DNA of 60,000 nt from Bolinopsis microptera (Eukaryota; Ctenophora; Tentaculata; Lobata; Bolinopsidae), in the NCBI RefSeq assembly GCF_026151205.1, contig NC_087076.1:20269919-20329918 (forward strand), read 5' to 3'. Under the pieces are notes generated by a model that saw only the letters and a program-made list of their open reading frames with translations, was not told the DNA's origin and ran no database searches. Within the stretch, counting starts at the first letter, position 1. The number at the start of each line of letters is the position of its first letter. Shown here in pieces: positions 2,382 through 44,100 of this stretch. Made by a program: the position numbers and the translations under genes.

Positions 2382-2508
2382 CCTGTGACCACGCCCTATG
2401 TGCCACACCCATATTTTTTTAACAAATTTGTACATTAATTTTATTGTTAAAAGTTATGAAAATTAAATCATACATAATTGTAATACTACTTAAAAACATC
2501 TATTTAAA

Positions 2509-5023: not shown

Positions 5024-5479
5024 AAATTTTAAACCATGTTCAAACGAAATGCTTGGGTCACATTTATATTCGAGTAGAAAGTCTCAAAGCTCTAAATCAA
5101 TCCAATCATTTAAAAATCTGAGATTTTCGTGTTTTTATGTGTATAAGAAATAGGGGCGTGGTCCACGGCCAGGGCGTGGTCCACGGCCAGGGCGTGGTCA
5201 CAGAGTTTTGAAAATATGTTTAAACGAAATGCCATCATCACATTTATATTAGAGTAGAAAGTCTCAAAGCACAGAAATGACGCTTTCATGTTAAAAAATG
5301 CGATTTTCCCTATTTTACCTGTATAAGAAACGCTATAAAAATGGGCGTGGCATGTGCGGACCATATCCGGAACACTAGAGTCAAAAAAATTTTTTTGGTC
5401 GTTCCTGACCCTATAGAGCAACTAATAAGATATGATGTCTAATTATTTGAACAACTTTTGGTAAAATGAACCACTCTAG
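5024..5479 (-). repeat. Right long terminal inverted repeat
   Basis: This is the inverse of 1945-2381. Relative to the left arm it carries one extra tandem copy of an 18 bp GTGGTCCACGGCCAGGGC unit around 5156-5195. Otherwise the two arms differ at only scattered positions. Confidence 0.85.
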
Positions 5480-17127: not shown

Positions 17128-20100
17128 GTTAGTATCTTTATATAATATTATATAATTCGGAATTTCGCTGGATTGTACAACTTTCGTCTTGGTAGATTCC
17201 AAACACAAGGAAATTTTCCTTCTGGTTGGTAATATACTCAATGATGGAAGTATAGTGTATTGGCTATGCCCCGCTTACTAGTTTAGCTCTTTCTAGTCCC
17301 CTGCTACACGGCATGTAAACAGGGATTGGCTAGTTAGAGGCGGTCCGTGTAGGCCTTACACTGTGCTTTCAGCAATAGCTTCTTAATTTTGTGAAAAACT
17401 TGATATGTTGTTATGATCCATTGTTTACATTTTACTCTTTAGATTTTTGGCCAATACTTATGTCTTTATACACTGTAAGAGGCTAGTTTATTTTGTAGTT
17501 CTGTAACCTGAGAAACACAGAGGTAGGTTTATGTTTAAAACATCACGGGCCATTCCTACACTTTTACCTCAATGAATGTAATAGATGTGTAGTGTTGCAA
17601 TTAGTTTAAAATTTAAATTATTACTGATTTATTTATTATTGAATGAAGCCCATGAAAATATAATGTGCAATGTTAAAAAGAAGTTTTTAAAGATACCCTG
17701 AGGTATCTTAACTATATATATATATATACTGTACAGTTTATATATAAACTATAAGATTTTTGACAATCAATGAAAATTGTACCTCGATTAATATGACTCA
17801 CTTTTCTTCATTCTTGTTAAGACTTTAAGAAGATTCACGTGTAACTAAAGAAATCTCAGGTGCTGTGATGCGCTGGAAACAGCAAATAACTTTGGCAGCA
17901 GAAACAGTCTCAACTCTCAAGGAAAGAGACAAGTTCCCGCTCGCATCAACTGTCCGCTGTGCCCCAAGAACTACTGTGATAAGAGTGCGGTGAAGAAACA
18001 TCTGAAGACATGTTGTGAAGAACGTAGCAAGTGTTATGAAACAGTGTGTGAAATGTTGTTTGCTTCTTCCAGGTTGGTAATGTGTAGAGTAATGTATTAT
18101 GCATTAAGTTGATGTTCGGAGTTACTCTCAGTCCTAAGTAAATGGAGTTGAATAAGGTGATATTTTCTACTTAATTCTGTTGTGTATCATGTATGTAGCC
18201 TTTTTAATGGTTTTGATGTGCCCCCTTGCAGTAAGATATCGGTAGACATTGATGGTAGCAAACCAAAGAAGGAAACAACAAAAAAGACAAAATCAAAAGA
18301 GAAACAATCAACCCCTCTGCTTATGGAAAATAACGGTGCTATCAACGATGCCCAGAACAGAATACTGGATATAGTCGCTGACCAGGTAAAACTTATCAAT
18401 TTTGAAGGCCTGTGTTTGCTTTTGAGCAAATTCTTGCTGCTATTTACCTCTAAATTTACGTGAACGTAAAACCTAAAACTCGATCATTGTGCGAAACTTG
18501 ATCATTGTGCGAAACGGTCTTCCTTAGAAAGAGAGCGTGACGTTTCCTTGATTTGTGTATGCGATTTGTATGCGATTTCACCCCTGTATGCGATTTGTGT
18601 TCCGGGGTATTTGGAACAGGTTTAGGGTTTTAAATAGTTAGTACCTGTCCCAAACCATCATAAAAATCAAGTTTCGACCTCCCAACCCACTCAGGCCACT
18701 CCCAGGGGCCACGCCCATCCCAAAATAGCTGAAATCCTGGTAAAATCAAGATTGAAAATCTTTACCCCCGTATGCGATTTATGTTCCGGGGTAGGTGGCC
18801 CATGTTTTAGTATAAAAATGGGTACTGCCTATCCCAAACCATCATAAAAACCAAGTTTCAACCTCTCAAACCACTCAGGCCACTCCCAGGGGCCACGCCC
18901 ATCCCAAAATAGCTGAAATCCAGGTCAAATCAAGATTAAAAATCTTTACCCCCGTATGCGATTTATGTTCCGGGGTAGGTGGCCCATGTTTTAGTATAAA
19001 AATGGGTACTGCCTATCCCAAACCATCATAAAAACCAAGTTTCGACCTCGCAAACCACTCAGGCCACTCCCAGGGGCCACACCCATCCCAAAATAGCTCA
19101 AATCCAGGTCAAATCCCATACAAATCCAGACTGAGAATCTTTACCCCCGTATGCGATTTATGTTCCGGGGTAGGTGGCCCATGTTTTAGTATAAAAATGG
19201 GTACTGCCTATCCCAAACCATAAAAAAAACCAAGTTTCGACCTCCCAACCCACTCAGGCCACTCCCAGGGGCCACGCCCATCCCAAAATAGCTGAAATCC
19301 AGGTAAAATCAAGATTGAAAATCTTTACCCCCGTATGCGATTTATGTTCCGGGGTAGGTGGCCCATGTTTTAGTATAAAAATGGGTACTGCCTATCCCAA
19401 ACCATCATAAAAACCAAGTTTCAACCTCTCAAACCACTCAGGCCACTCCCAGGGGCCACGCCCATCCCAAAATAGCTGAAATCCAGGTCAAATCAAGATT
19501 AAAAATCTTTACCCCCGTATGCGATTTATGTTCCGGGGTAGGTGGCCCATGTTTTAGTATAAAAATGGGTACTGCCTATCCCAAACCATCATAAAAACCA
19601 AGTTTCGACCTCGCAAACCACTCAGGCCACTCCCAGGGGCCACACCCATCCCAAAATAGCTCAAATCCAGGTCAAATCCCATACAAATCCAGACTGAGAA
19701 TCTTTACCCCCGTATGCGATTTATGTTCCGGGGTAGGTGGCCCATGTTTTAGTATAAAAATGGGTACTGCCTATCCCAAACCATAAAAAAAACCAAGTTT
19801 CGACCTCCCAACCCACTCAGGCCACTCCCAGGGGCCACGCCCATCCCAAAATAGCTGAAATCCAGGTAAAATCAAGATTGAAAATCTTTACCCCCGTATG
19901 CGATTTATGTTCCGGGGTAGGTGGCCCATGTTTTAGTATAAAAATGGGTACTGCCTATCCCAAACCATCATAAAAACCAAGTTTCGACCTCGCAAACCAC
20001 TCAGGTCACTCCCAGGGGCCACACCCATCCCAAAATAGCTCAAATCCAGGTCAAATCCTATACAAATCCAGACTGAGAATCTTTACCCCCGTATGCGATT

Positions 20101-23100
20101 TATGTTCCGGGGTAGGTGGCCCATGTTTTAGTATAAAAATGGGTACTGCCTATCCCAAACCATCAAAAAAATCAAGTTTCGACCTCCCAACCCACTCAGG
20201 CCACTCCCAGGGGCCACGCCCATCCCAAAATAGCTGAAATCCAGGTAAAATCAAGATTGAAAATCTTTACCCCCGTATGCGATTTATGTTCCGGGGTAGG
20301 TGGCCCACGTTTTAGTATAAAAATGGGTATTGACTATCTCAAACCATCATAAAAACTAAGTTTCGACCTCTCAAACCACTCAGGCCACTCCCAGGGGCCA
20401 CGCCCATCCCAAAATAGCTGAAATTCAGGTCAAATCCCATACAAATCCAGACTGAGAATCTTTACCCCCGTATGCGATTTATGTTCCGGGGTAGGTGGCC
20501 CATGTTTTAGTATAAAAATGGGTACTGCCTATCCCAAACCATCATAAAAACCAAGTTTCGACCTCGCAAACCACTCGGGCCACTCCCAGGGGCCACACCC
20601 ATCCCAAAATAGCTCAAATCCAGGTCAAATCCCATACAAATCCAGACTGAGAATCTTTACCCCCGTATGCGATTTATGTTCCGGGGTAGGTGGCCCATGT
20701 TTTAGTATAAAAATGGGTACTACCTATCCCAAACCATCATAAAAACCAAGTTTCGACCTCTCAAACTACTCTTGCCACTCCCAGGGGCCACGCCCATCCC
20801 AAAATAGCTCAAATCCAGGTCAAATCCCATACAAATCCAGACTGAGAATCTTTACCCCCGTATGCGATTTATGTTCCGGGGTAGGTGGCCCATGTTTTAG
20901 TATAAAAATGGGTACTGCCTATCCCAAACCATAAAAAAAAATCAAGTTTCGACCTCCCAACCCACTCAGGCCACTCCCAGGGGCCACGCCCATCCCAAAA
21001 TAGCTGAAATCCAGGTAAAATCAAGATTGAAAATCTTTACCCCCGTATGCGATTTATGTTCCGGGGTAGGTGGCCCATGTTTTAGTATAAAAATGGGTAT
21101 TGACTATCTCAAACCATCATAAAAACCAAGTTTCGACCTCGCAAACCACTCGGGCCACTCCCAGGGGCCACACCCATCCCAAAATAGCTCAAATCCAGGT
21201 CAAATCCCATACAAATCCAGACTGAGAATCTTTACCCCCGTATGCGATTTATGTTTCGGGGTAGGTGGCCCATGTTTTAGTATAAAAATGGGTACTACCT
21301 ATCCCAAACCATCATAAAAACCAAGTTTCGACCTCTCAAACTACTCTTGCCACTCCCAGGGGCCACGCCCATCCCAAAATTACTGAAATCCAGCTAAAAT
21401 CCAGACTGAGAATCTTTACCCCCGTATGCGATTTATGTTCCGGGGTAGGTGGCCCATGTTTTAGTATAAAAATGGGTACTGCCTATCCCAAACCATCATA
21501 AAAACCAATTTTCGACCTCTCAACTCACTCAGGCCACTCCCAGAGGCCACGCCTATCCCAAAATAGCTGAAATTCAGGTCAAATCAAGAATGAGAATCTT
21601 TACACCTGTAGGGGATTTAACTTCCGGGGTATTCTTTTTGGTATGACTTACTATCACCACTCATTCGAGGAATATGTTAAATCAAAGAATATTCATGTTC
21701 ATTTTTTTCGAATGAAGGTTCATTATCGCATTTTTTAAATAGTTTTGATAATCAGATCGAGCCAAATTTTATAGGATTGTATTTAGCCATTCAAATTACG
21801 TTCGATCTGAAAAAATGAGAGTTGTAGCTTCTCAGATGTCCGAGATACGAGGCATAACGAGTTTATTCATTACGTGTGATCAGGTGATTGGATTACCTGC
21901 TCAGGTGATTAGATGGCCCCGTTAAATTGCAAGGGAACCCAATCAAGGTGTCCTATCACATAATCACCCAATCAATTTTGTTAACGAGATACATTCAATG
22001 CGTCATTTCAACTCCGATTGACCTCAATTTTTCAGATCAGATGCAACAATTAAATATCTACAGTAATCTGAAATAAATGGGCGTCTAGTATGTCTGGAAA
22101 GAACAATATAGGTGATTTAATATTAAATATGGACGTAGGCCGTAGTCTAAATATTCAAATTTTCAAACATTGGCGACGGAATCCTCGAATGAGTAGTTAC
22201 AGCATGCCATCTGCAAAGTTACAGGTCCATAATATGAAACACGGTGGTGGTGTAAGACCCAACATATGTAACGTTAGTTTTGCCCCACCCCCTGTAGCTT
22301 TTATGGGTTAGGCGTGGCCCCTGGGAGTGGCCTGAGTGGTTTGAGAGGACGAAACTTGGTTTTTATGTTGGTTTGGGATAGGTAGAACCCATTTTTACAT
22401 TAAAACATGGGCCACCTACCCCGGAACATAAATCGCATACGGGGGTAAAGATTCTCAGTCTGGATTTGTATGGGATTTGACCTGGATTTCAGCTATTTTG
22501 GGATGGGCGTGGCCCCTGGGAGTGGCCTGAGTGGTTTGAGAGGTCGAAACTTGGTTTTTATGATGGTTTGGGATAGTCAGTATCCATTTTTATACTAAAA
22601 CATGGGCCACCTACCCCGGAACATAAATCGCATACGGGGGTAAAGATTTTCAATCTTGATTTTACCTGGATTTCAGCTATGTTGGGATGGGCGTGGCCTG
22701 AGTGGGTTGGGAGGTCGAAACTTGATTTTTATGATGGTTTGGGATAGGCAGTACCCATTTTTATACTAAAACATGGGCCACCTACCCTGGAACATAAATC
22801 GCATACGGGGGTAAAGATTTTAAAGTCTGGATTTTAGCTGGATTTCAGTAATTTTGGGATGGGCGTGGCCCCTGGGAGTGGCCTGAGTGGGTTGAGAGGT
22901 CGAAACTTGGTTTTTATGATGGTTTGGGATAGGCAGTACCCATTTTTATACTAGAACATGGGCCACCTACTCCGGAACATAAATCGCATACGGGGGTAAA
23001 GATTTTAAAGTCTGGATTTTAGCTGGATTTCAGCTATTTTGTGATGGGTGTGGCCCCTGGGAGTGGCGTGAGTGGTTTGAGAGGTCGAAACTTGGTTTTT

Positions 23101-26100
23101 ATGATGGTTTGGGATAGGTAGTACCCATTTTTATACCAAAACATGGGCCACCTACCCCGGAACATAAATCGCATACGGGGGTAAAGATTTTAAAGTCTGG
23201 ATTTTAGCTGGATTTCAGTAATTTTGGGATGGGCGTGGCCCCTGGGAGTGGCCTGAGTGGGTTGAGAGCTTGAGAGGTCGAAACTTTGTTTTTATGATGG
23301 TTTGGGATAGGTAGTACCCATTTTATATAAAACATGGGCCACCTACCCCGGAACATAAATCGCATACGGGGGTAAAGATTCTCAGTCTGAATTTGTATGG
23401 GATTTGAGCTGGATTTGAGCTATTTTGGGATGGGCGTGGCTCCTGGGAGTGGCCTAAGTGGTTTGAGAGGTCGAAACTTGGTTTTTATGATGGTTTGGGA
23501 TAGGCAGTACCCATTTTTATACTAGATCATGGGCCACCTACCCCGGAACATAAATCGCATACGGGGGTAAAGATTCTCAGTCTGAATTTGTATGGGATTT
23601 CAGCTGGATTTCATCTATTTTGGGATGGGCGTGGCTCCTGGGAGTGGCCTGAGTGGTTTGAGAGGTCGAAACTTGGTTTTTATGATGGTTTGGGATAGGT
23701 AGTACCCATTTTTATACCAAAACATGGGCCACCTACCCCGGAACATAAATCGCATACGGGGGTAAAGATTTTAAAGTCTGGATTTTAGCTGGATTTCAGT
23801 AATTTTGGGATGGGCGTGGCCCCTGGGAGTGGCCTGAGTGGGTTGAGAGCTTGAGAGGTCGAAACTTTGTTTTTATGATGGTTTGGGATAGGTAGTACCC
23901 ATTTTATATAAAACATGGGCCACCTACCCCGGAACATAAATCGCATACGGGGGTAAAGATTTTAAAGTCTGGATTTTAGCTGGATTTCAGTAATTTTGGG
24001 ATGGGTGCGGCCCTTGGGAGTGGCCTGAGTGGGTTGAGAGGTCGAAACTTGGTTTTTATGATGGTTTGGGATAGGCAGTACCCATTTTTATACTAGATCA
24101 TGGGCCACCTACCCCGGAACATAAATCGCATACGGGGGTAAAGATTCTCAGTCTGAATTTGTATGGGATTTCAGCTGGATTTCATCTATTTTGGGATGGG
24201 CGTGGCTCCTGGGAGTGGCCTGAGTGGTTTGAGAGGTTGAAACTTGGTTTTTATGATGGTTTGGGATAGGTAGTACCCATTTTTATACCAAAACATGGGC
24301 CACCTACCCCGGAACATAAATCGCATACGGGGGTAAAGATTTTAAAGTCTGGATTTTAGCTGGATTTCAGTAATTTTGGGATGGGTGCGGCCCTTGGGAG
24401 TGGCCTGAGTGGTGTAAAGATTTTAAAGTCTGGATTTTAGCTGGATTTCAGTAATTTTGGGATGGGCGTGGCCCCTGGGAGTGGCCTGAGTGGGTTGAGA
24501 GGTCGAAATTTGATTTTTATGATGGTTTGGGATAAGCAGTACCCATTTTTATACTAAAACATGGGCCACCTACCCCGGAACATAAATCGCATACGGGGGT
24601 AAAGATTTTAAAGTCTTGATTTTAGCTGGATTTCAGTAATTTTGGGATGGGCGTGGCTCCTGGGAGTGGCCTGAGTGGTTTGAGAGGTCGAAACTTGGTT
24701 TTTTTAATGGTTTGGGATAGGTAGTACCCATTTTTATACTAAAACATGGGCCACCTACCCCGGAACATAAATCGCATACGGGGGTAAAGATTCTCAGTCT
24801 GAATTTGTATGGGATTTGAGCTGGATTTGAGCTATTTTGGGATGGGCGTGGCTCCTGGGAGTGGCCTGAGTGGTTTGAGAGGTCGAAACTTGGTTTTTTT
24901 TATGGTTTGGGATAGGTAGTACCCATTTTTATACTAAAACATGGGCCACCTACCCCGGAACATAAATCGCATACGGGGGTAAAGATTCTCAGTCTGAATT
25001 TGTATGGGATTTGAGCTGGATTTGAGCTATTTTGGGATGGGCGTGGCTCCTGGGAGTGGCCTGAGTGGTTTGAGAGGTCGAAACTTGGTTTTTTTTATGG
25101 TTTGGGATAGGTAGTACCCATTTTATATAAAACATGGGCCACCTACCCCGGAACATAAATCGCATACGGGGGTAAAGATTCTCAGTCTGAATTTGTATGG
25201 GATTTGAGCTGGATTTGAGCTATTTTGGGATGGGCGTGGCTCCTGGGAGTGGCCTAAGTGGTTTGAGAGGTCGAAACTTGGTTTTTATGATGGTTTGGGA
25301 TAGACAGTACCCATTTTTATACTAGATCATGGGCCACCTACCCCGGAACATAAATCGCATACGGGGGTAAAGATTCTCAGTCTGAATTTGTATGGGATTT
25401 CAGCTGGATTTCATCTATTTTGGGATGGGCGTGGCTCCTGGGAGTGGCCTGAGTGGTTTGAGAGGTCGAAACTTGGTTTTTATGATGGTTTGGGATAGGT
25501 AGTACCCATTTTTATACTAGATCATGGGCCACCTACCCCGGAACATAAATCGCATACGGGGGTAAAGATTCTCAGTCTGAATTTGTATGGGATTTCAGCT
25601 GGATTTCATCTATTTTGGGATGGGCGTGGCTCCTGGGAGTGGCCTGAGTGGTTTGAGAGGTCGAAACTTGGTTTTTATGATGGTTTGGGATAGGTAGTAC
25701 CCATTTTTATACCAAAACATGGGCCACCTACCCCGGAACATAAATCGCATACGGGGGTAAAGATTTTAAAGTCTGGATTTTAGCTGGATTTCAGTAATTT
25801 TGGGATGGGTGCGGCCCTTGGGAGTGGCCTGAGTGGGTTGAGAGGTCGAAACTTGGTTTTTATGATGGTTTGGGATAGGCAGTACCCATTTTTATACTAG
25901 ATCATGGGCCACCTACCCCGGAACATAAATCGCATACGGGGGTAAAGATTCTCAGTCTGAATTTGTATGGGATTTCAGCTGGATTTCATCTATTTTGGGA
26001 TGGGCGTGGCTCCTGGGAGTGGCCTGAGTGGTTTGAGAGGTCGAAACTTGGTTTTTATGATGGTTTGGGATAGGTAGTACCCATTTTTATACCAAAACAT

Positions 26101-29100
26101 GGGCCACCTACCCCGGAACATAAATCGCATACGGGGGTAAAGATTTTAAAGTCTGGATTTTAGCTGGATTTCAGTAATTTTGGGATGGGTGCGGCCCTTG
26201 GGAGTGGCCTGAGTGGTGTAAAGATTTTAAAGTCTGGATTTTAGCTGGATTTCAGTAATTTTGGGATGGGCGTGGCCCCTGGGAGTGGCCTGAGTGGGTT
26301 GAGAGGTCGAAACTTGGTTTTTATGATGGTTTGGGATAGGCAGTACCCATTTTTATACTAAAACATGGGCCACCTACCCCGGAACATAAATCGCATACGG
26401 GGGTAAAGATTTTAAAGTCTGGATTTTAGCTGGATTTCAGTAATTTTGGGATGGGCGTGGCTCCTGGGAGTGGCCTGAGTGATTTGAGAGGTCGAAACTT
26501 GGTTTTTTTTATGGTTTGGGATAGGTAGTACCCATTTTTATACTAAAACATGGGCCACCTACCCCGGAACATAAATCGCATACGGGGGTAAAGATTTTAA
26601 AGTCTGGATTTTAGCTGGATTTCAGTAATTTTGGGATGGGCGTGGCCCCTGGGAGTGGCCTGAGTGGGTTGAGAGGTCGAAACTTGGTTTTTATGATGGT
26701 TTGGGATAGGCAGTACCCATTTTTATACTAGAACATGGGCCACCTACTCCGGAACATAAATCGCATACGGGGGTAAAGATTTTAAAGTCTGGATTTTAGC
26801 TGGATTTCAGCTATTTTGTGATGGGTGTGGCCCCTGGGAGTGGCGTGAGTGGTTTGAGAGGTCGAAACTTGGTTTTTATGATGGTTTGGGATAGGTAGTA
26901 CCCATTTTTATACCAAAACATGGGCCACCTACCCCGGAACATAAATCGCATACGGGGGTAAAGATTTTAAAGTCTGGATTTTAGCTGGATTTCAGTAATT
27001 TTGGGATGGGCGTGGCCCCTGGGAGTGGCCTGAGTGGGTTGAGAGCTTGAGAGGTCGAAACTTTGTTTTTATGATGGTTTGGGATAGGTAGTACCCATTT
27101 TATATAAAACATGGGCCACCTACCCCGGAACATAAATCGCATACGGGGGTAAAGATTCTCAGTCTGAATTTGTATGGGATTTGAGCTGGATTTGAGCTAT
27201 TTTGGGATGGGCGTGGCTCCTGGGAGTGGCCTAAGTGGTTTGAGAGGTCGAAACTTGGTTTTTATGATGGTTTGGGATAGGCAGTACCCATTTTTATACT
27301 AGATCATGGGCCACCTACCCCGGAACATAAATCGCATACGGGGGTAAAGATTCTCAGTCTGAATTTGTATGGGATTTCAGCTGGATTTCATCTATTTTGG
27401 GATGGGCGTGGCTCCTGGGAGTGGCCTGAGTGGTTTGAGAGGTCGAAACTTGGTTTTTATGATGGTTTGGGATAGGTAGTACCCATTTTTATACCAAAAC
27501 ATGGGCCACCTACCCCGGAACATAAATCGCATACGGGGGTAAAGATTTTAAAGTCTGGATTTTAGCTGGATTTCAGTAATTTTGGGATGGGTGCGGCCCT
27601 TGGGAGTGGCCTGAGTGGTGTAAAGATTTTAAAGTCTGGATTTTAGCTGGATTTCAGTAATTTTGGGATGGGCGTGGCCCCTGGGAGTGGCCTGAGTGGG
27701 TTGAGAGGTCGAAACTTGGTTTTTATGATGGTTTGGGATAGGCAGTACCCATTTTTATACTAAAACATGGGCCACCTACCCCGGAACATAAATCGCATAC
27801 GGGGGTAAAGATTTTAAAGTCTGGATTTTAGCTGGATTTCAGTAATTTTGGGATGGGCGTGGCTCCTGGGAGTGGCCTGAGTGGTTTGAGAGGTCGAAAC
27901 TTGGTTTTTTTTATGGTTTGGGATAGGTAGTACCCATTTTTATACTAAAACATGGGCCACCTACCCCGGAACATAAATCGCATACGGGGGTAAAGATTTT
28001 AAAGTCTGGATTTTAGCTGGATTTCAGTAATTTTGGGATGGGCGTGGCCCCTGGGAGTGGCCTGAGTGGGTTGAGAGGTCGAAACTTGGTTTTTATGATG
28101 GTTTGGGATAGGCAGTACCCATTTTTATACTAGAACATGGGCCACCTACTCCGGAACATAAATCGCATACGGGGGTAAAGATTTTAAAGTCTGGATTTTA
28201 GCTGGATTTCAGCTATTTTGTGATGGGTGTGGCCCCTGGGAGTGGCGTGAGTGGTTTGAGAGGTCGAAACTTGGTTTTTATGATGGTTTGGGATAGGTAG
28301 TACCCATTTTTATACCAAAACATGGGCCACCTACCCCGGAACATAAATCGCATACGGGGGTAAAGATTTTAAAGTCTGGATTTTAGCTGGATTTCAGTAA
28401 TTTTGGGATGGGCGTGGCCCCTGGGAGTGGCCTGAGTGGGTTGAGAGCTTGAGAGGTCGAAACTTTGTTTTTATGATGGTTTGGGATAGGTAGTACCCAT
28501 TTTATATAAAACATGGGCCACCTACCCCGGAACATAAATCGCATACGGGGGTAAAGATTCTCAGTCTGAATTTGTATGGGATTTGAGCTGGATTTGAGCT
28601 ATTTTGGGATGGGCGTGGCTCCTGGGAGTGGCCTAAGTGGTTTGAGAGGTCGAAACTTGGTTTTTATGATGGTTTGGGATAGGCAGTACCCATTTTTATA
28701 CTAGATCATGGGCCACCTACCCCGGAACATAAATCGCATACGGGGGTAAAGATTCTCAGTCTGAATTTGTATGGGATTTCAGCTGGATTTCATCTATTTT
28801 GGGATGGGCGTGGCTCCTGGGAGTGGCCTGAGTGGTTTGAGAGGTCGAAACTTGGTTTTTATGATGGTTTGGGATAGGTAGTACCCATTTTTATACCAAA
28901 ACATGGGCCACCTACCCCGGAACATAAATCGCATACGGGGGTAAAGATTTTAAAGTCTGGATTTTAGCTGGATTTCAGTAATTTTGGGATGGGTGCGGCC
29001 CTTGGGAGTGGCCTGAGTGGTGTAAAGATTTTAAAGTCTGGATTTTAGCTGGATTTCAGTAATTTTGGGATGGGCGTGGCCCCTGGGAGTGGCCTGAGTG

Positions 29101-32100
29101 GGTTGAGAGGTCGAAACTTGGTTTTTATGATGGTTTGGGATAGGCAGTACCCATTTTTATACTAAAACATGGGCCACCTACCCCGGAACATAAATCGCAT
29201 ACGGGGGTAAAGATTTTAAAGTCTGGATTTTAGCTGGATTTCAGTAATTTTGGGATGGGCGTGGCTCCTGGGAGTGGCCTGAGTGGTTTGAGAGGTCGAA
29301 ACTTGGTTTTTTTTTATGGTTTGGGATAGGTAGTACCCATTTTTATACTAAAACATGGGCCACCTACCCCGGAACATAAATCGCATACGGGGGTAAAGAT
29401 TTTAAAGTCTGGATTTTAGCTGGATTTCAGTAATTTTGGGATGGGCGTGGCCCCTGGGAGTGGCCTGAGTGGGTTGAGAGGTCGAAACTTGGTTTTTATG
29501 ATGGTTTGGGATAGGCAGTACCCATTTTTATACTAGAACATGGGCCACCTACTCCGGAACATAAATCGCATACGGGGGTAAAGATTTTAAAGTCTGGATT
29601 TTAGCTGGATTTCAGCTATTTTGGGATGGGCGTGGCTCCTGGGAGTGGCCTGAGTGGGTTGAGAGAACAAAACTTGGTTTTTATGATGGTTTGGGATAGG
29701 TACTAGCTATTCAACCACTAAAACATCTGTCACCTACCCCGGAACACAAATCACATACAGGGCCGAGTAAAGATTTTTGACTTGAATTATAGCTTTTCTG
29801 GGGTCGGTGCGGCCCTTGGATGTGGTTCCAAGTTGGGTTCAAGGTGTTATTTAGTTATTCATATCATAGTGTCTATAAATATACGAGCAGTTTATTTTGA
29901 CTTTTGAAGGGTTACCGTCATAAATTCTACAAATATAATTATTTTAACGTACGTGCGGCGCGCAAATCGCATACAAAATCGCATACACATTTCAGGGAAA
30001 CGTCTTCTGCTTAGAAAATTTTGGAATACGCATACTTCAAAATTTGATGTTTTAAGCGCAAGCGCGCCCTTTCCAATATATTTATTAGATTTGCGCGCAG
30101 CAATATGACTGAAAAGTAAAAAGAAATTACGTTGCTTTCTTTTTTGATTGGACCTCATCTTACAATTTTCACCCTTTATTCTTGTGTTAATAGGATATGA
30201 AAAATTTAAAACTGAGCTGTAGCAGTATTGTAGTAGATGGACCGTATGGGTAACGCCAGCGGCGGAGAGACGACAACATCGCCCTCCGTAATGTTTACCT
30301 CAGCTGCAGGACGATCCCTGTTTGCTACACTCCTCATCAGCTTCGCCACCTTTAACATACGTGGCCTCGGTTCTTGTGATGATCCAGACGACATCCACAG
30401 CAAACGGGAGCAACTGGGTACCGATTGTCTACGGTACGGCATAGATATCTGCGCTATTCAGGAGACTAAGGTTGTAAAACCGGATTCTTGCAGTCTTAGC
30501 AACGGATACAAACTATTATTGTTTGAGCAGAAAAATGGCCGGCACTATGGACTCGGTTTTGTTATCAGTCCCCGATTTATTGACTATGTGGTATGCTGGA
30601 ACAGTATCAGTGATCGAGTAAGCTTTTTGGACCTAGAACTCCCTACAAAATCTGGAAAATTTATCAAATGTAGGGTGGTCAATGTATATGGGCCACACAA
30701 GAAACTTGCAGAAAATGATCAACAACTGTTGATTAATTTTTACGGCCAAGTTAGGGACGCTCTAAACGTCCCTGCTAATGTTGAGATATTTGTTTTGGGA
30801 GATTTAAATTCAAAGTTGGGAAAAATGACTGCTTCAGATAAGGACTTTGGTTTTGGTCGTTTCATGGGTAAACATGGTATGGGTTTGCGCAACGATATGG
30901 GAGAAAACTTGTTAGACTTGTTATCAGAATTTGACCTCTTTGCCTCCAACACTGGTTTTTATCATCCTGCCCGACATACGACCACCTACACTGGCTGGAG
31001 GAAGGACTGGAGTGCCGGGCGAAATAGTAAAAAGACGATCCCGGTCTATTCTCAGATCGATTTCATCCTGTGTCGAAGTAGGTCAAAGCCAATGCTACAA
31101 GATTCTAGATCTTATGCAGGCACCTTGACATACTCTGATCACAGATTTGTTGTCACTAGAGTAGATTTTAAGGACATCTGTCTTTGCTATAAACGCCACT
31201 CCAAGTCATCCTTAAAGTTCAACACCTCTGAACTCACCTCGAACCCCACCATTCAGGTGAAATATCGTCAATCCTTAGATGATAACTTAAGTAACACTGT
31301 TTCTGCTCTGGATCCAAATTAAGACTTGAATGGCTTACTTGAGTCCATAAAGGATGCTGCAAAATCGTCAATTGGTGTCATCAGACACAGGAAACGTAAT
31401 CGCAGCGACGATGATGAGGTGAAAAACTTATCTAGCCAGCGTTACTTGTTGAGACAGCAGCTTAATGATAACCAGTCTTTAGACAGAACCTCACTTAGAT
31501 CATCTATTAACTGCCTCACCAATCAGATCAAGCAGAGACTTTCTAACATACGATCAGCTGCTGCTGATGCTATCTGTAATACCATCAGTTCAACAACAGA
31601 TAGTAAGAAAATGTTTGAAGCTGTTCGAACCCTGAACTTACCTAAAAGTAAAGCCCCTTCTAGTATTGGTGTTCATGACGAGCAAGGGTGCAATATCGCA
31701 ACAGACACTGGTAAAGCTGCCGTAGTTGCTAAGTACCTTGAGCAACAACTTACTCGTGATGAAGCACCTTTAGAACCTTTTGTAGGACCTCCTCGCCCAC
31801 TAGTTAAGCCATTCACTAGTGAAGAAATCGGATCAGCTGCTAGAAGTCTCAAAAATGGTCGAGCTAACGGCCCAGATGGGATTCCTAATGAGCTTCTCAA
31901 GTATTCTACTGGATCAGTACACAGACGTTTTGCAGACATTATCAATAGAAGCTTCGAGACCAATTCCTACCTTGACCCCATTGGACAGGCAAACATTACC
32001 CCCTTACAGAAGCCAAATAAGCCCATTGGTCCAGTGAAGAATCTACGACCCCTCACTCTCTCAAATGCTGTTAGAAAGATTCTTTCAATGGCAACCTTGA

Positions 32101-35100
32101 AGAGAATTGAGAATAAAGTCAATGCCTTCACTGGTCCATGGCAATGTGCTTACAAGCAGGGTAGATCATGTGCTGACATTGTATGGTGCCAGCGTGTGAT
32201 GTTATCAGTTGTTCAGAGGAAGAGGTGGGAATACCATCGCATGGGGATCGACATGTCTAGTGCCTTTGACACTATACGACGATCTACCATCCTCGATCTT
32301 CTTGTTGAGTGTGGCTGTGATGATGACGAAGTCCGTTTGGTAAGACTTTTGCTTTCCAACACCAAGCTCAAAGTCAACATCAACGGTACACTGTCTGCTG
32401 AATTCCAGAGTTTTCTCGGTGCATTCCAAGGTGACTGTCTGTCTGGATGCTTGTTCACACTTGTCTTAGCGGGTGCCTTGCGTGACCTCCGTAACAGGCT
32501 TGAAACTGCAACGAATAGGCCTAACCCACCTATCACCGATATTGGTCTTCCACTTGACAGTGAGTATGCTGATGATATCGACTTCAATGATGAAGATGAA
32601 GACAATCTGAGGGAGCTGTTGCCTATTGCAACAGAAGTCCTTAAAGATTGGAATCTCTTCGTTAACGAAGACAAAACTGATTTCACTCATGTGTACTTAG
32701 CTGAAAAGGGAGCTAAAGACGATCAGGGTAAGCCAATTGCAGGGAACGAGCTCTGGAGAAAGAGTATCACGCTTGGCTCCATGCTTTGTAGTAAGGAGGA
32801 CATCTCTAGAAGGATATGTCTGGGATATGCCGCGTTTAACAAATACAAGAAAGCTTGGAACCATAAGATCCCTCTGAGCAAGAGGCTTCTGTTGTATGAG
32901 GCTCTGGTAGTATCCGTTTTAATGTACAATTCATCTTGCTGGGCTGCCCCTAAATCAGTATTGGAAAAACTAGATATTGCTCACAGACGTCATCTGCGAT
33001 CAATTTTGAACTACAAATACCCTCACATCATCTCCAACAAGAACTTGTATAAACGCTGCAATAGCGAACCATTGTCAGCTAAAGTGGCTCGTAGTCGGTG
33101 GAGGATGCTCGGACATGTACTGCGTGGGCCTACAGATGGCCCTGCCTATTCGTCGCTTGTTTTTGCTGTCAACACCCTACAGCTTCAAGGGCGGCGTGGA
33201 AGACCGCAGTCAAACCTTTTCTCACTGATTCTACACGACCTTAGTGTCCGAAAATTATCGTTAAATAATTTATGTGATTTGAACTATTTAACGTTAATTG
33301 CTCAGTATAGAGTTAAATGGAGAAGTATGCAAATTGCATGACTTTTGTTTGAGAAAGATTAGGGGACAGAAATGTTTACTATCTGTTTCTTAGAGCTTTT
33401 GTTTATATGTAGCAGTATTATAATTTTCTACTACATTACATTTCCACATACATCCCTACAATACGTAATTTATGCTTTTGAAACAGATACAAATCTTCAC
33501 CCAAAGGTCTCGTATTCCAATCGGCTAATGTAAGATAGCTACGTTTAAAAGTGTTAAACATACCCCTCTCCTCAGGATTCTAAGGATGAAGTACCCGCCA
33601 CACCAGCTCTAAAAGTCAGTAAACTCACGACATACCGTTCTAAACGGAACTCGATTTGGAACGTAGCAGGCTCCGCAACTACAACAGTCCCCAATGTGTT
33701 GAAACACGAGAACTCACTCATAAACACCCAGAAATCTGAAGATATCGTCCAACCCTTACCGGCCTCTGTTCCCGACGATCCTATTTGTATGGAGAAATCT
33801 TCTCTCCCTTCCCAAGCTGACATAACCCAGTTAACCCAGTTTCTGACGGATCTTGGGAAGAACGATTCAATGAAAGAAACGTTGAGCAACATAATGCTCA
33901 GTCCCACTAAACTGAGAACTGATTCAGCAAGTTTAAGTCAAGGATCAGATGTGAACTCTTTGGTGACAGAAAGTTTTACAAAGATGGCTGAATATGTGTG
34001 CCCAGAAGTGAGAACAATTCAGATTAAGAATTCTTTCAAAAAGAGATCAAATTCTTCCCTTAGCTGCCCAGAAAAATCAAGGACTGATTCAGATGAAACT
34101 GAGGAATCAGAAGAAGAAAATGAAGAAATTGAGAATAAAAATGGGCAATCTTGTGGCTCTAAAACAGAAAGCTCGCCTGCCCCTATAAATCGCAGCAAAA
34201 GTGATCCCGGACCCAAATCAGAGGAGGAAATCATTCACAGATGCGAAACGGTGCCCAACATTTTAACAGACAGATCACCCAACCCTTCAGACATATCAGC
34301 AGTTGGGGAGAGCTTACACATCAGGACACCAGCAAGGGACACGTCAGAGATTGTATCTTTAAGAGATGCTGAGTCCATTTTACCAGATCATTGCTCAGTT
34401 CAAGAGGACTCCAATTTGGACTTGTTCGGGGAAGGGAATGGTAGGTTTTGCGAACAATTTCCATGCATTTTTGATTATTTAATTTTTGAAGTGATTGAAT
34501 GTGTTGATTAAGTGCCGCTTTATTTATCATGAGCGGTCTATACTTGGTTTGTGTTTCACGAGGAAAACTCGCAGGTATGGAGCGGAGAGAGTTTGATAGG
34601 TCTCCTGATAGGTCCCTTCTTAACGTGTCTCCGATCACTGACTCCGGACTGAATGAGGTTGATGTGGTCAAAGAGGAGAGGAAGGTTAAAAAATCTGTCT
34701 CAGTTCAGATACCAGAGGAAAACAGGATTTCACCCATATACCGGTGAGAAACTAAGGCTTTGTTAAGGGTTTATTTGAAAAGTCTGCAACATGACCAGTT
34801 TTATTGGAAGATCACTTTTTCTGTCTAACCGTTCACCTCCATCAGGCCCAAGCACTGTTCCTCCACTACCCGGGATTGTAATGTCCTGACAGTTCCTGCT
34901 CCCCAGTCGCACAAGAACGTGAGCTGCAACTACTTTGCTGCTTCATACCAATCTTTGCAACTTGTTCAAAAGCATTCACAATTTTATCTTGACATAAGTT
35001 ATAACCGATCATTCTCTAATTGAGCAAATTAGAAAATTACCAAATTTTGATATCACTTTCCCTGCAGATACAGGTAGATAAAGAAACTAGAAACATAGCA

Positions 35101-38100
35101 GCGGGAACTGACGTCACAACCCGAGCAAAAGGAACCAACACCGACATAGTCCGGACTCGCAACGTGGCGTGTGACATAAGTCACATCGACACACGCTCTG
35201 TACCAACACAAGCTGACGGTACGTTTAATTTATTAGAGCCTTTGCTTAGAGACTCTAACTCGAGCAACTTAGAGTTGAACTCGAGCAAGCCTGCAATATT
35301 TGGAGTTGTCTTACAGTAACGGTCACGTGCCAAATATAAATAGCTATTGGCTGGCTACCCAGAGTCTAATTAAATTTCGGAACTGCTGAAATGCGAGTGG
35401 CGGATACTTGTGTCTGTTGTTTGTTTGCTTGTTTATAGAACCCGTCCCCAATCTCTTATCGGAAAATGACTGAATACGGGTGGTACCCGCAAGTCTGTTC
35501 ATTAAGCATTTAGAGTTCTGTAAAACTGCAGTTACAATTGTGCTAGGGTCTTTAGTATTTACGATCGATATTAGGTCTCTATCCCTACATGCTTCCAAAA
35601 TTTGTAATCTCCAACTTTCTGCACAAATGTACTGGAATTTTTTGGAAAAAAAAAAGAATGTGATATAGAAATAAAATTAACGATTAAATGTTAGGATACT
35701 TGTTATTGTGTATAATTGCTAATCAATTGATTTGTCAGATACGGCAAAGTGCTTGCCTCACTACACAATCACATAAGATACCCTTACAGACTCCCACCTC
35801 TCTCAGGAGAGCACGGTTTAGCAGCCATGATGCGCCGTCTCCTCGCTGACACACCCTCCTCTGACGTCACACTGCTCTGCACCGACTGGACAGAGAAACG
35901 CGCGCACCGCGTCATCCTCAACGCGTCCTGCCCTGCCCTCCTCGCTTGCTCCGGCCCCCAGATCCCGGACGATAGCTCCCTGGTTAAACTGGAGATAGGC
36001 CCTGAAGCTGCGGATAAGTTCATGGAGTACGTGTATACTAGGGAGATAGAGGATGAGGATATACGCCCTACCATACTGAGTGAACTCTTCGATATCGCTG
36101 AGAGGTATGGTGTTTTATTTTTCTTTATTGTTTGGTTTGCTTTTCTTTTTATTTAGGTGATTGTTAGATTAACAAGAATACGAGTTTGTTGTTATGGCAT
36201 AAATGTTTTATTCACATAGTTGTAATAGCATGATACTATAATCTTAATGACAATTTTATTGAGAGAAGTATGAACTTAAGTTCACCAAAATGGTGCCCAA
36301 ATGACAAAAAGCAGCAAAAAATATACATGATATATGCAACTTAAATTTGTCCGTTCAATACGCTTAAAATTTTGAAAACTAACCTAGACTCAAGTTACTC
36401 AGCAGAGTTTATCATGAGACAGGAACATCTCCAACAAGATTCTAAGTTTTGTCACGTTACCCAATAGGTCACATGATGTGGCCAGTTCAGTCTTGTGACT
36501 TGTGACTTCACTTGGATCTCCATTTCTGGTCGGCTTTGCCTCATTCACTCCCAAGTCTAGTTCATTAAGGCAGATCTCTATCCTGCTAAGATATCCTCTC
36601 TGTTTGATCCCTGCCATGTTAGATAGAGTCCTCATAGCATGTCGTATCTCCACCAGTGTGTCCTGTATCTCGTTCCTCAGTTCTGTGGTCGTTCTCATCG
36701 GCCGGTAGAACAGACAATGTTTGTTAGTCGGGCTGTTCCGCTGTAGTTCCAGCTTCTCAAGCATCTTGGTATTTTGCCAGCAGATCTTCAGTGTGTTTGC
36801 TGTGTTGACTGTTGACGCGGAGACTGAAGATGCCGTAACCAGCACCAAAAGCAGGATCATCTTGAAAGTTGAGAGGGACGGTCGAGTTCTGATATCAGTT
36901 CAAGGTGTTCAAACTCAAAGTTAAGCATCTTTCACAATTCCTTTCAAGCCCAGCTTAGGTTGCGAAATATTCAACATTTCCCGATTAATTTCGATGAATG
37001 GTGAATTTTAATATGGAATTGTTGGCATCGGTAATATCATTATGCGACTTGAATAGTTCATGAATACGATTAATATCCAGCTAAGTACGCACAGCTTTGT
37101 AAATGTGTTTCTAAACTCTGTTAAAGCTTTCATTGACCTGGTTTATTATTTGAAAGAAATGCAGATTATTTTATGTGACCGAGAGTAATGCAATCTATAA
37201 ACATGTTCAAGCTTCTTCCCGCTTGAATTTATAGACATCTTACAGCAATAGCAGCAAATCTGGGGAAACTTGGTGGACATTGACTTTTTTCACAAAATTT
37301 GTGTATGTTGACTTCAAAATGATATTGCAGCTTATTGTGGTTAATCTCAATGTTGGAGTGATGTTTTTCTGGTGCACAAAACACTGCAGTACAGTTATGT
37401 TGAATAATTGAGGTTAATGAATCCTCTATGTGGCCACTATGGTGGTTAAAATACCAGTTTTAGGGTTAACCACCATTTTGAGATATGATATTATGAAATG
37501 AGTAGTCATTATATTGAGATCATCCCATGGTGCAACTATTACAAAAGTTTAAAACCCTCATTGGGGGCATTTTGTGGTCCTAATGGTGGTTAAATGGAAG
37601 ATGAACGATGAGCAATAAATATTGCTCTGGTTATAGATGTATAGTGGTGGTTGCTCATTTGTACATGGATGATAATTTTTCATCACAAATGTGCAATTTA
37701 ATAGTACGGTTAATTTTAGGTGGTTAATATTCGTAAAAAGTGCTAAAAAGATGGTTAAAACGTCAAAATATTTTGTTAACCACCAATCAAAACAATATTA
37801 ATGCTTTTAGTCAACTTTTTCTGGTCAACAAAGGACATTTGAAGGGTTTTGATAAAAGTTATCAAGAAATGTTGTCATAAAAGTGGTTAAAAGGGCTATA
37901 TGACTTGCTAGGCTGTTGAACAAGGCATCTATTAAAGTGAAAATTAACCACAATATGAAGTTCGGATAATGGTTTGCTATCCAATTGAGTGTATAATTGT
38001 TTGCAAATCCATAATTGACCCCAAGTTCATGCATTATGATCAATGTGCAGCTATGGTGGTTAAAATGTCTCGAAAATACCCTATATTTGCTCTAATTAAC

Positions 38101-41100
38101 CATTTTTAGAGCACATATTAGCTTTGTAAAGCTATAGCTGGCCATGCTGCATTATCTAGATATAACTACCAGCTCATCTATGTGCACAAAAACATTGCTG
38201 AGTCCTTTGTTGTGTCCAGCATGGTTAATAAAGGTCTAAAATTGACCTAAATCAGTGTTTTTGGTCGTTTTAACCGCCATATGGCCACACATTCTGTTGC
38301 ATTATCTTTAAAATCACTTATTATCCTTCAGCTATCTCTCATAATCAAATATCAAAACAAAATAAGGCACAAAAAGTTCGGAGGTTGCTGAATAATGGTT
38401 AATTTGTGATTGCTTCTGTTGACCGAAAGTCCAAAATAAACATGTTTTAACCACATTGAGGCCACATCTAAGGTATTATGGTATTGGGACCATAGCCAAA
38501 AGTTTTGGGCACCTGGATGGTGTCCTCTGCCTCTGAAATTATAGTGATATTTCAATGCTGTGCCATACCAGGTGGTTAAGTACGCGCAAGCGCGCGCGCA
38601 CGCGTACAAACATGGTTTTTTTGATATACCACAGTTGGTGGTTAACTGTTCTACATCAGACCTTCACTAAAAGTATTGGGCACCATAGTGGTGACATAAT
38701 ATATAAAGAATTTAAGCATAGACTAAATATGTTGGCCTACAGATGGTTAAGTACGCGCAAGCGCGCGCGCACGCGTACACTATAACATAAATAAATAAAC
38801 CACTCCACAGACCACATTTATTAATTTTTTTTATTTCCTTCTTCAACTATGTGTCAATGAACCATTTTTGTTTAATAATGACCATCAATTTTAACTGTAC
38901 TACTCATATCTTCACTGTAGTAAGGGTTTGGGTGTAAGAGGTATAAAAAATGTCCACTAACAAATCAGTCATTTTTCGACTACTTAACCACCTAACTCAG
39001 CACCAAAATGTTCTGAGATTTTTTTCGTTGCACTATCATAAAGCTATGACATTTTTGAACCTATGTAAATATTCAGATTACTAGAATTCATATTCTGTGA
39101 TTTTTAAGGGGTGGTTAAATGCTTCAAAGTGGTGTATTTCAAAGTTTCCCCAGATTTGCTGCTATTGCTGCTTACTATATATAAAGCGAGACGATATATA
39201 TATATATATTTATCCGTGCCATTTTACTGACACCACGGCATCAACTTTAACGCGAATTTCCGCAGAAATCGTAAAAGATATACAACTGAAACTTTTTTGA
39301 CTGGGTCAAATGCTTTAATGGCCTCCAAATCAGCATGAAAAAATAAAAAATTGGCCAAGAAATAGGAGTTTTAGAGCCGAAAATTTGGACCACCAAGTGG
39401 TGTCAAAAACGCGAATTAAATAGGTAATAATTATTTAAGTCTCTTGAGTCTTGACACCATTTTAGGGTTATACGGGTTCCTGCTAGTATATATAATATAC
39501 AAGGAATACAAGGAATACAAGGAATACAAGGAATACAAGGAATACAAGGAATACAATACAAGGAATACAAATTTAAAATCTTTAGTTACAATAGTAACTG
39601 TTAAGATAATAACAATATCATATGATTTAAATTTATTATATTATATAACTTAAACCAAAGTGAAAAATAAAGATTTTGACAATAAATATTTTGTTTACAG
39701 TCGCCTTGGTAATGCTGTAATGCTTGAGCCAGGTCACTCTGCACTCATTGTTGCGCGAAAAGAAACAGCGCTGGTACAGTGATGTTTAATATTCATGTAC
39801 TGGCCAGAGAGTCGACGAATTTCTTGCTGTTGTTAACACACGTAGTGGCAAATCTAGCAACGACTCTCGTGAGGTGGACTTGACTTTCGTTCGTGATTAA
39901 TTCAATGATTTCACTGTTGTTGCTGATGAGTTTGAGAACGTTTGATCCAGGGATGACAGCGTGAACAGGATAAGATGTCGCAGATGGTTTGTTTGGATTT
40001 GATATGATTGACTGGATCTTGTCTAGGACTTTTCGCCTTGATGCGGCGTTAAGATCACAATGGTTAAGGAAGTGATCTTCACTCTCAATAATACCAGAAC
40101 CTAAGACTATATTGCACCAAGAGCATATTCGCTCGTCACGAGGAGTTTGATTATATCGGCCAAGTTCAATTTCGAGTCGATGTGCACTGATCCGTAGTCT
40201 TGTGATATTAGCACGGTCGGCATATTTAATGACACTGTCTAGGTAATATTCTTTGTTGAATTTGGATTTTAGGTCACGATAAAATTCTAATTTCCGAGAA
40301 GTGTTGATACAGGACCCCCAATATTCTCTAAAGCTACATTTCAAACTTTTAGTAATGACGTGGGGTGTGAATATTTTACTCCCGATGGGTTGTGTTGATT
40401 GCGGAGGAATTCGTTTCTTGAAACCGTTGTGAATAAGAAAGTCCTCTTTTGGTGGTTTTGTGATATTCGGGTTTCTTTCAGAAATTAACTTGGAGTGATT
40501 GTTTTTGAGTGTGCGGTAGGCTGTGACATGATCGGTAGAGAAACATGGGTCTAGCGCGAGGACAGGCTCCAGACCTCTGTACCAGTCTAATTTCATGTTC
40601 ATCTGTTCCTTGAAGGCTAATGAGACAAGGGAGTTATCTTTGAGATTTTTCAAGCGTTGGCTATATTTGAGAGTAAGGTTAATGCATTCATAGATCAATG
40701 GGTAGCGGCCTGACTCACCCCAGACGCCTGCGTTGCTGGCTTTACGGTTTACACCCAGTGACCATTTAAGAAAGTGAAGGTGAACTTTTTCGCTGTTCAG
40801 AAGGCTAATTTTCTTGAGGATACTAGTGTGAAATTTTGTTTTTGTGTCGGGATCCATATTGAGATCGACTTGTTTTGAGATGTGTTTTATGATAGCCATA
40901 TTAGGTGTGTAAATAGGCGCTCCGTAAAGAACGATAGGTTTAATAAGACCATCAAAGAGTGTTGTTTGAGAGCGGAATGATAATTTGGATTTGTTTACTG
41001 AGCTTTTCATGCCATAAAGTGCACGCATGGCTTTCTTTTTGAGCTCAGTTCGTGCATTTGTGAATGAGCCGGATTTGTGTATTTCGATTCCTAGATAACA

Positions 41101-44100
41101 GTATGACTCGACTTCTTCTAACAAGTGATTACCAATTTTGAGGGGAACCGGCTGATAGTTGTCGAAACGGGCATTAAATTTCATGAGTTTAGTTTTATCT
41201 GCATTAATTTCGACGCCCCATTCCAAGCAGAAATTGTTCAAAGCATCGAGTTGCTTTTGGAGGGTTTTGGGGTCGAGTGCCAAGAGTATCAGATCATCTG
41301 CCCATAGTAAGTGACTGATAAGTTGGTTCATTAGTTTTGGACAGTTATCATATTCTAGTCGAGGGGAAAGATCTCTGATGTATATCTTAAAAAGATCAGG
41401 GGAAAGTGGATGACCCTGTTCAGTTCCTTTACTGATATCAAATTTTTCGCTGACAAATCCAGATAGTTTTATCTGGCCAGTGGAATTTTTGTACATATGT
41501 TTAAGAACATTAAAAGTTTTGCCAGTGATGCCTAGTTTAGCTAATTTTAAGAAAAGAGCTTCACGGCAAACAGAGTCGAAGGCTTTCCGGAAGTCCACGA
41601 AAACAGCATGAACGGGAACCTTGAGCTTTTTGTATTTAGACGTAATGGTGTTGAGTGTGAGTATGTGGTCGTATGTTTGAGCTCCTTTAGCGAAGCCAAG
41701 TTGATTTATGGGGTCCGGGTTGTATTCATTTTTGAACTTGATTATCCTGTTTAGCATAATGGTCGAGAATATGTAGACTGTAGATGAATTATTCCAGGGA
41801 TTGATAACTTTAATCAATTTCTAAAGGTTAAATTATATTAGAATTTTACCTATTTGAAACCCTGCATGATAAAATGCCCTGTAATGACGCACACCATGCA
41901 CGTGTTATTTTGTTTCAACGTCGAATATAGTAAGGAATAGTTGTTTATCCACCTCTTATATCGAATCCAATTAGTTATTTTTGAGAGAATTTCGAGAACA
42001 CAAAAGAAAGCTCTGTCACATGTTTCTTTGTCAATTATCTCAATGAAACACAGCACGTGCAATGAGAACACTATTTGTGGTTTCAGCTTGATCTGATATC
42101 TTCAAAGTTTTTCAAAGTATTTTTGAATGGCTTTGGAGATCACAAAAGAACGCTATCTTACTTAATTCTTGAACGATTTTCAGAGTAAATAGCAGGGTGC
42201 GCAGGGAGGAGGTTACCTATTGTTTCAGCTTGATATCTTCAAGGTTTTTCAAAGTATTTTTGAATGGCTTTGGAGATCACAAAAGAACGCTATCTTACTT
42301 AATTCTTGAACGATTTTCATAGTAAATAGCAGGGTGCGCAGGGAGGAGGCTACCTATTGTTTCAGCTTGATCTGATACCTTCATCGATCTATAACCCAGT
42401 CGAACAGCTGTTGTTCAAGTTATCCTATTTTGTTGCGTGGTCATTTAAAGATATCGTGCAGTCGATCTTTCATCAAGACACAGTTTGACAACTCTCATGT
42501 ATACAGAAATTGGTTTGTGGTCTTCTGAAAATAGTGCTAAGATAACAAGCCACCGTGTCATGATAGGGATATTAATTGTAATTACCAACCTTGATGCCCT
42601 TCTCGGCTCCAACTGTCCACAAGAAACTTATTCTAAAGAAAAGATAGTTATAACTGGTGGACTGTACAATGGACTAGGTGGCTTACACCCGATGGATTCG
42701 GAAAATGACATCACCTGCATAGATGATGCAAGTAGTTTCGTCCAATCGAATGGGACTTCACTTACTTATAATCGGCCTTATTATTTGTACCTAGTGAGAA
42801 AAAGACACAAATTACTTCGATCCAAGAATTACAGTTGCCCCATGGCAATGAACGTTGCCAATATATATAATCATTGGAATTCCGGAGGACACGTGTATAA
42901 AACATTGGACACAACAAATTGGACGTGTTTGATCCCTAGATCATATGTGTGTGATGGTTTCTCTAATTGCCTAACTGACGAATGTGGGTGCGGAAGAAAG
43001 ACTACTGAGCAGACAGATATTCAGATGCCAGTCTTCTACTGTGCTGAACAGCCTGGATGTATTTCTTTTTCACAGGTAACGAAAACATATTACTATTTTT
43101 TTCATACGGAGTGAATTATCAACAATAACTTTGGAAATTTGTAAGAATTTTTCTCTAATTGAACAGGAATGTTATAGTTAAACAAACAGTCTCATACAAA
43201 ATTCAATAAAAAATAACACATCGCACATTTCTGCAATTATATCCCTGTTTGTATTAATTAAAGACTGCACCTCCCACGACAGGTCTGTGATAACATTATG
43301 GACTGCTTGGACGGGAGTGACGAGTGTTTCTGTCAAAACCATGTGCAGATAAAACTGAACAATCAAACAATTGGCTGTGTCTCGCAAAGACAGTACTGTG
43401 AAAAGCTGGCATTCTCAGATATCTACCAATTAGCTAAAATTCAACCTCGAGTTAACTGTAGTGCTTACAACTTTAGCCTGCCATATTATTTCAATCCAAT
43501 CGAACAATGTTTGTCAGAGTATTTTTATATATTATATCAGCTTTCGGATGATCAGATAATAAATCTCTGTGAAAATAATTGCAGCAGTTTCTTTAAACAA
43601 AATCACTGGCAACATTTTTGCAAGCTTCTATCCCTGGGCATACATTCATTTCCAGAACTATCATGTGAAGTAGGGAGAGTATCAGAGGGAAGCTATCAAA
43701 GACCCGGCATGGACTCACTTTGTGACGGTAAGGTAGACTGTTTAAATGGGGCAGATGAAAAAGGATGCCCGGACAGATTCTACTGCTACAACCATTTGGA
43801 GAATGTGTCTAATCTTAGCAATAGCACAATGTGGATCCCAGCGTATAAAAAATGCGACAAAGTGAAAGATTGCCCAAATAGCATGGATGAGTGTAATATT
43901 GACTGTGGCCTCGGCAATATAGCTTCTCCTAAATCCCTCATAAAATCGAATGCTCTATCCTGTCTAAATGCCATCTTTGGATTAGCTGTTTTGATTCTGA
44001 ATGTAAGGAACGGTTATAAAGCAATGAAAAGCGATCCCTCTAATTTGATCGCGAAAACTGATAGAATTCTGTGCATACAAATATTTGTATATGACTTTAT

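Follow-up and report, generated by a model that had tools for sequence, protein, structure and literature searches.

The window analyzed here, a stretch of 60,000 nucleotides from the ctenophore Bolinopsis microptera (contig NC_087076.1, positions 20,269,919 to 20,329,918), harbors inside an SLX4-like gene an element of about 11.5 kb, which we consider with a probability of roughly 0.85 to belong to a family of non-autonomous DNA transposons of cut-and-paste type that have a Foldback structure. Its borders are 18531-30009, and the same 8-bp target-site duplication, CTTAGAAA, stands on both sides (18523-18530 and 30010-30017). A previous sequence-only reading had delimited it at 18539-30004; the structure it described holds, while the borders had to be moved, the true start lying 8 bp earlier and the true end 5 bp later.

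The left end is a terminal repeat (18531-18600, plus strand) whose outermost letters, GAGAGC, are followed by a 3-bp mismatch with respect to other copies, and it contains two adjacent 11-bp words GTATGCGATTT (18557-18578, plus strand). Next come the left arm (18580-21600, plus strand), made of 16 head-to-tail matches of a 184/195-bp monomer with tandem periods of 184, 195, and 379, and a non-coding core of 661 bp (21640-22300, plus strand here and found in either direction in other copies). The right arm (22296-29762) comprises 42 monomer matches in minus orientation, and in its distal part the blocks detected by Tandem Repeats Finder recur at about 1.4 kb. The right end, a 235-bp non-monomer segment (29775-30009, plus strand), terminates in ...GGAAACGTCTTCTG and bears two 11-bp words, as AAATCGCATAC, on the minus strand (29964-29986). 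Both terminal repeats carry GTATGCGATTT twice, in mirror orientation on the left and on the right, and visual inspection of the core showed a short inverted piece, TCCTCGAATGAG with its complement. The opposed arrays of a single monomer, the inverted pieces in a center of 0.7 kb, and the mutually inverted extreme ends, all reported in the sequence-only reading, were thus found again. Judging from base complementarity, the two arms could pair inversely over about 2.16 kb at 90%. No open reading frame (ORF) of at least 130 amino acids is present in arms or core, and one ORF straddles the right end and the flank.

ORFs on the plus strand flank the element, ending near 18.4 kb on one side and resuming at 33.56 kb on the other. 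Beyond it, an exon at 35731-36156 passes the Pfam cut-off for BTB, and its best relatives of solved structure are SLX4 BTB chains (4zou, E-value 3.3e-4; 4uyi, 9.2e-4), the next structure being a Kelch protein (7.6e-3). Two other ORFs were tested and gave no Pfam match above cut-off. The placement inside SLX4 suggested earlier agrees with this closest relationship and with the same-strand ORFs on either side, and the element is predicted to be intronic, between coding segments whose exon limits are likewise predicted. A kilobase-scale inverted repeat thereby sits within an intron of a host DNA-repair gene. The same intron also holds ORFs for a LINE-type endonuclease and reverse transcriptase (30237-33341), about 220 bp from the right end of the foldback element.

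Dispersed copies and their target sites

The assembly searched comprises 264.65 Mb in 232 contigs; in the first genome search, 39 of 336 candidates were scored and 533 matches obtained, which makes the repeat counts lower bounds. A 120-bp query from the left end is found in at least 20 places at 96% identity or more, the window copy included (the 19 others are 96-98% identical to it), with weaker ones besides. Likewise, a 236-bp query from the right end is found in at least 18 places at 97% or more, again including the window copy (17 others at 97-100%), and in additional places at 77-96%, some of them partial. Exact 14-base patterns of the ends gave 101 left and 105 right matches, and the reversed patterns 8 and 1. 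Among the 96 left and 100 right matches listed, 69 convergent pairs lie within 26 kb, with spans ranging from 218 bp to 21.1 kb, whereas pairs on the same strand are absent within this distance. Among these same matches, 27 left and 31 right ends are unpaired, which is in part explained by partners that have changed ends or lie outside the matches listed. The genome search for the end sequence that had been advised therefore revealed other copies at unrelated sites that share both ends and have their own 8-bp duplications; dispersed copies with the same ends, a hallmark of the foldback class, are present.

In five cases, 3-28 bp separate a right end from the left end of a second copy that points in the same direction (C5:4523862/4523891, C2:17740028/17740042, C7:2197380/2197394, C11:2930668/2930689, and C11:8200506/8200510), and the element possibly prefers to insert next to its own ends. 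Four loci (C12_2017, C11_20629, C11_4169, and C9_1694, or L045-L048) were rejected as autonomous copies because they are a left end and two monomers captured in another repeat. These four repeats are 98-99% alike, with the captured part between inverted copies of another sequence, and their mutual likeness breaks off at one common place.

Target sites were compared at the 39 loci with both exact ends, using the best pair where one locus had several ends. The 8-bp flanks are identical in 23 of them, representing 22 distinct sites, since two C2 copies alike in length, flanks, and duplication point to one insertion that was later duplicated. In the subfamily of the window copy, the duplication is exact at 18 of 19 loci. 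Perfect duplications surround short copies (0.57-1.8 kb at five sites, 3.1 kb at a sixth) as well as copies of 9-21 kb that contain dozens of monomers. A target-site duplication of constant length, another trait of the foldback class, is thus observed, and, together with fixed ends that recur in dozens of dispersed copies, this duplication of 8 bp shows that the family has been mobile in the past.

The remaining 16 loci include one with 7 of 8 matching positions and 15 with 6 or fewer, 10 of which have their flanks in common, being copies of a single nested insertion; C2_3951, a relative of that insertion, has an exact duplication. Twelve short relatives (L051, L052, L054-L062, and L064), with monomers in one direction only and identical flanks, yielded no empty copy of these flanks; they apparently lie inside a different repeat, which spread once the insertion had taken place.

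Opposed arms, shared word, and core direction

Architecture was examined at 32 loci picked by left-end similarity. Plus monomers precede minus monomers in 25 of them and the reverse order occurs in none; in the other 7, no right arm was seen within the stretch examined. Where both arms occur, the left one has 1-51 and the right one 1-63 monomer matches. The third trait of the class, long inverted ends with tandem repeats, is therefore seen in the window copy and at 25 of 32 loci, and only at 2 of 17 further short loci. The arms consist of one monomer in mirror orientation, differ in length between copies, and enclose a core that occurs in both directions. With shared ends, opposed arms of varying length, and no ORF of at least 130 amino acids, the proposal of a foldback transposon with satellite arms and no transposase is upheld for the window copy.

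The 11-bp word of the large copies follows the pattern GTAnnnnATTT and occurs twice per end and once per monomer. At the 22 loci of subfamily A, the monomer word equals the end word GTATGCGATTT in 534 of 594 cases and is never GTAGGGGATTT; among the 60 exceptions, 50 have GTATGCAATTT or GTATGTGATTT. At the 9 loci of subfamily B, the monomer word is GTAGGGGATTT in 120 of 131 cases, two of the 131 apparently stemming from a neighboring copy, and never GTATGCGATTT. Altogether, no crossover between A and B words was detected in 725 monomers. Twenty further right ends carry GTAGTGGATTT twice in 13 cases, the other 7 being A-type, B-like, single, mixed, or without the word. In subfamily C, that of GTAGTGGATTT, the monomers of C8_1181 agree with the ends (2/2), as does one partial monomer of C6_11069. 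Compared with all 174 windows of 11 bases in the monomer, the word block ranks second (A) and eighth (B) in conservation, with a small margin. The large copies of A and B hence show a strong agreement between ends and monomers, which is thin in C and poor at the short loci.

To compare the arms, each of 640 monomers from 16 elements was paired with its best match in other elements. In subfamily A, left-arm monomers match left arms better than right arms (on average 0.9885 vs 0.969) and right-arm monomers match right arms better than left ones (0.982 vs 0.962). The same holds in subfamily B, with 0.9828 for the same arm vs 0.975 for the opposite arm on the left, and 0.9735 vs 0.9564 on the right. 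Within single elements, same-arm likeness is 0.98 and opposite-arm likeness 0.94-0.97. Left and right arms are distinct monomer lineages common to separate elements, which implies that element and arrays were inherited together; the arms are likely to have grown and shrunk afterwards.

The core is present in 20 loci, 12 in plus and 8 in minus direction; subfamily A has 6 of each when C8_9438, whose core match is only 70%, is excluded. In a tree built from 15 of these 20 cores, parsimony requires at least 4 changes of direction, but support for the inner branches is weak and this number is not clearly below that of shuffled labels (mean 5.2; 22% of shuffles at 4 or fewer). We furthermore compared, on each side of the core, the core-side monomer of opposite-direction copies with the same-arm monomer. 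The monomer that touches the core goes with the core and not with the arm (0.929 vs 0.841 and 0.966 vs 0.888), the effect being weak for the second monomer (0.894 vs 0.885 and 0.897 vs 0.882) and gone at the third. A crossover between the arms, no farther than one or two monomers from the core, would explain why core and touching monomer flip together. Two plus-core copies, C9_6391 and C3_223, also have left-type monomers beside the core on the right; several rounds of inversion are therefore likely, unless the averages make the pattern look cleaner than it is.

Proposed mobilization and growth of the arms

We propose that a transposase encoded elsewhere moved the element, probably recently, as the ends are 96-100% identical. 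This enzyme may recognize the word GTAnnnnATTT, a putative binding site present in ends and monomers alike; with such a word in the ends and repeated in the monomers, each arm would constitute an enlarged landing platform. Regarding the word as a transposase binding site would follow the precedent of Galileo (PMC3688188). Unequal exchange would lengthen and shorten the arms, and crossing-over between opposed arms close to the core, as suggested by the sequences, would have inverted the core repeatedly.

Duplications of 8 bp fit the hAT, P, and KDZ superfamilies and some others, and hAT elements prefer the target nTnnnnAn. The length found here is that of hAT, but the preference is not: among the 23 duplications, 9 have T at position 2 and 3 have A at position 7. 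The hAT domain PF05699 gave 150 hits in the genome, 148 of which were located. Three hAT hits lie 5.7-17.7 kb from unpaired foldback ends, on the element side. Given that none of the located hits to either domain falls inside any of the 69 end pairs, we did not retain hAT or MULE as the mobilizing family, although a partner that is distant or resides in an unpaired copy would be compatible with this result. The window also contains a second DNA transposon (1939-5485) with inverted arms of 314 and 157 nt that are 99% complementary, ends CTAGAGTGGTTC, and two minus-strand ORFs (2509-4750) without Pfam match. It was discarded as a helper of the foldback element, its ends being different. Elsewhere in the window, the minus strand has one more ORF for a reverse transcriptase and one for an RNase H (39793-41820, 6335-7312), and there is a (GGAG)52 tract (53731-53938) with 99% matches.

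Several results weigh against our interpretation. No transposase or autonomous copy was found among the copies read. None of the 148 located hAT hits and, as determined by eye, none of 88 MULE hits (PF10551) falls inside the 69 end pairs; the P-type RNase H domain PF21787 gave no match, with 14 control genomes likewise silent, and the KDZ domain PF18758 matched neither here nor in any control genome. At five loci, both ends are present but a matching duplication is missing, with no apparent cause (C11_5508, with 6/8, C3_584, C6_11069, C2_11519, and C8_1181). Empty sites, for which the sequence-only reading had advised a search along with shared-end copies, did not appear in the single test made, in which the joined flanks of the nested insertion, a short relative, served as query (the flanks come from the repeat carrying the 615-bp relatives): all 37 matches are one-sided and none spans the join. 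Both arms occur at just 2 of the 17 further short loci; at 14 all monomers point the same way, and the last one lacks any monomer match. The outer left-end word is matched there by just 7 of 31 monomer words, most of these loci being copies of one old insertion. Exceptions to word agreement also occur in individual copies: C11_2930 has the outer word GTAGTGGATTT and, in the inner left end and all 4 monomers, GTAGTGCTTTT (0/4 agree); two end pairs (C3:8019394 and C2:18035742) have the C-type GTAGTGGATTT in their right ends, yet GTAGGGGATTT beside the core; and the B locus C12_14940 has GTATGGGATTT as inner left-end word. Finally, the idea that the word evolves faster than the rest of the monomer was dropped, only 2 of 18 fixed A-B differences lying inside it.

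Tandem arrays are error-prone in assemblies, and an ordinary satellite with an assembly-made inversion would be one account of the locus. It is highly improbable and we reject it, in view of a constant architecture at 25 of 32 fixed-end loci and of exact target duplications at 23 of 39; the monomer is not confined to plain head-to-tail satellite, these 25 loci having opposed arrays. Another account holds that only short ancestors jumped and that the arrays expanded after insertion at each site. Arm lengths from 1 to 63 monomer matches and the perfect duplications around short copies speak for it. However, the separate left- and right-arm lineages are common to several elements, and long copies have the core and the adjoining monomer in common, which indicates that arrays already existed in a common source, with later growth likely; expansion solely at each site is thus rather unlikely.

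As to the agreement of the word between ends and monomers, one explanation, to which we give a little less than an even chance, is that no protein reads the word, which was homogenized by slippage and gene conversion or simply inherited within each subfamily. Indeed, the left end has three word copies within about 40 bp that run into the first monomer, C11_2930 resembles a conversion intermediate, its inner left-end word being that of its monomers while the outer words differ, mosaic copies such as C8_9438 exist, and ends and monomers mostly disagree at the short loci. On the other hand, the right-end words lie about 200 bp from the nearest monomer, in unrelated sequence with little beyond the word in common, a shared stretch that would seem short for ordinary conversion, and the large A and B copies agree without any A/B crossover. 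Alternatively, and only tentatively, the satellite may have arisen by amplification of the very word that the transposase recognizes. If so, the variable letters of the word in the large copies would have switched together between subfamilies, at two sites per end and in hundreds of monomers, locking the arms of each subfamily to one transposase specificity; growth of the arms would be selected through capture of the transposase, whole arrays of up to about 20 kb would move as one unit, and short loci whose words disagree would represent relics that have decayed or can no longer move.

Related elements and satellite DNA

The FB elements of Drosophila and the TU elements of sea urchin have long inverted ends made of tandem repeats, with repeat units far shorter than 184/195 bp. 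Foldback elements are also named in PMC4079207, and those with satellite-like arms are already known from Tetris of Drosophila virilis, a non-autonomous foldback element described there with tandem repeats of about 220 bp inside long inverted ends. The likeness to the present family is one of described structure. Complete Tetris copies have duplications of 8-9 bp (8 bp here), and the repeats share 37 bp with the outer end, as the 11-bp word is common to ends and monomers here. Tetris repeats also form long satellite-like arrays, extra transposase binding sites within them were suggested as well, and no autonomous partner was found. In contrast to the family described here, only three structurally complete Tetris copies are given, with inverted ends of up to 1,735 bp; its authors consider that large arrays may disrupt transposition, whereas here copies of 9-21 kb have perfect duplications. 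A core in both directions is a further difference from Tetris, as far as it is described in this source (PMC4079207).

Galileo, a Drosophila element of the P superfamily, similarly has long, internally repetitive ends, which in one of its subfamilies contain direct repeats of about 210 bp (PMC3573991, PMC3688188), and in D. buzzatii additional binding sites for the THAP domain of the transposase are reported within the tandem repeats (PMC3688188). Unlike the present family, in which no such copy was found and the P-type search was matchless, as it was in the controls, Galileo has transposase-coding copies (PMC3573991, PMC3688188). In the Pacific oyster, Helentron-borne satellite repeats are another example of mobile elements that disperse short satellite-like arrays (PMC7492417), but Helentrons are of a different mobile class, whereas the family described here has an 8-bp target duplication. 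In open-access titles and the openings of abstracts, a scope that leaves out most subscription papers, we found no description of agreement between end word and satellite word across subfamilies, nor of both core directions in a foldback family.

The origin and spread of satellite DNA is an old question. Here, a single genome contains many copies of one element, with arms of 1 to 63 monomers, two subfamilies of large copies whose ends and satellite agree in their word, and a core that flips, and this family allows a direct test of whether transposase binding drives satellite growth.

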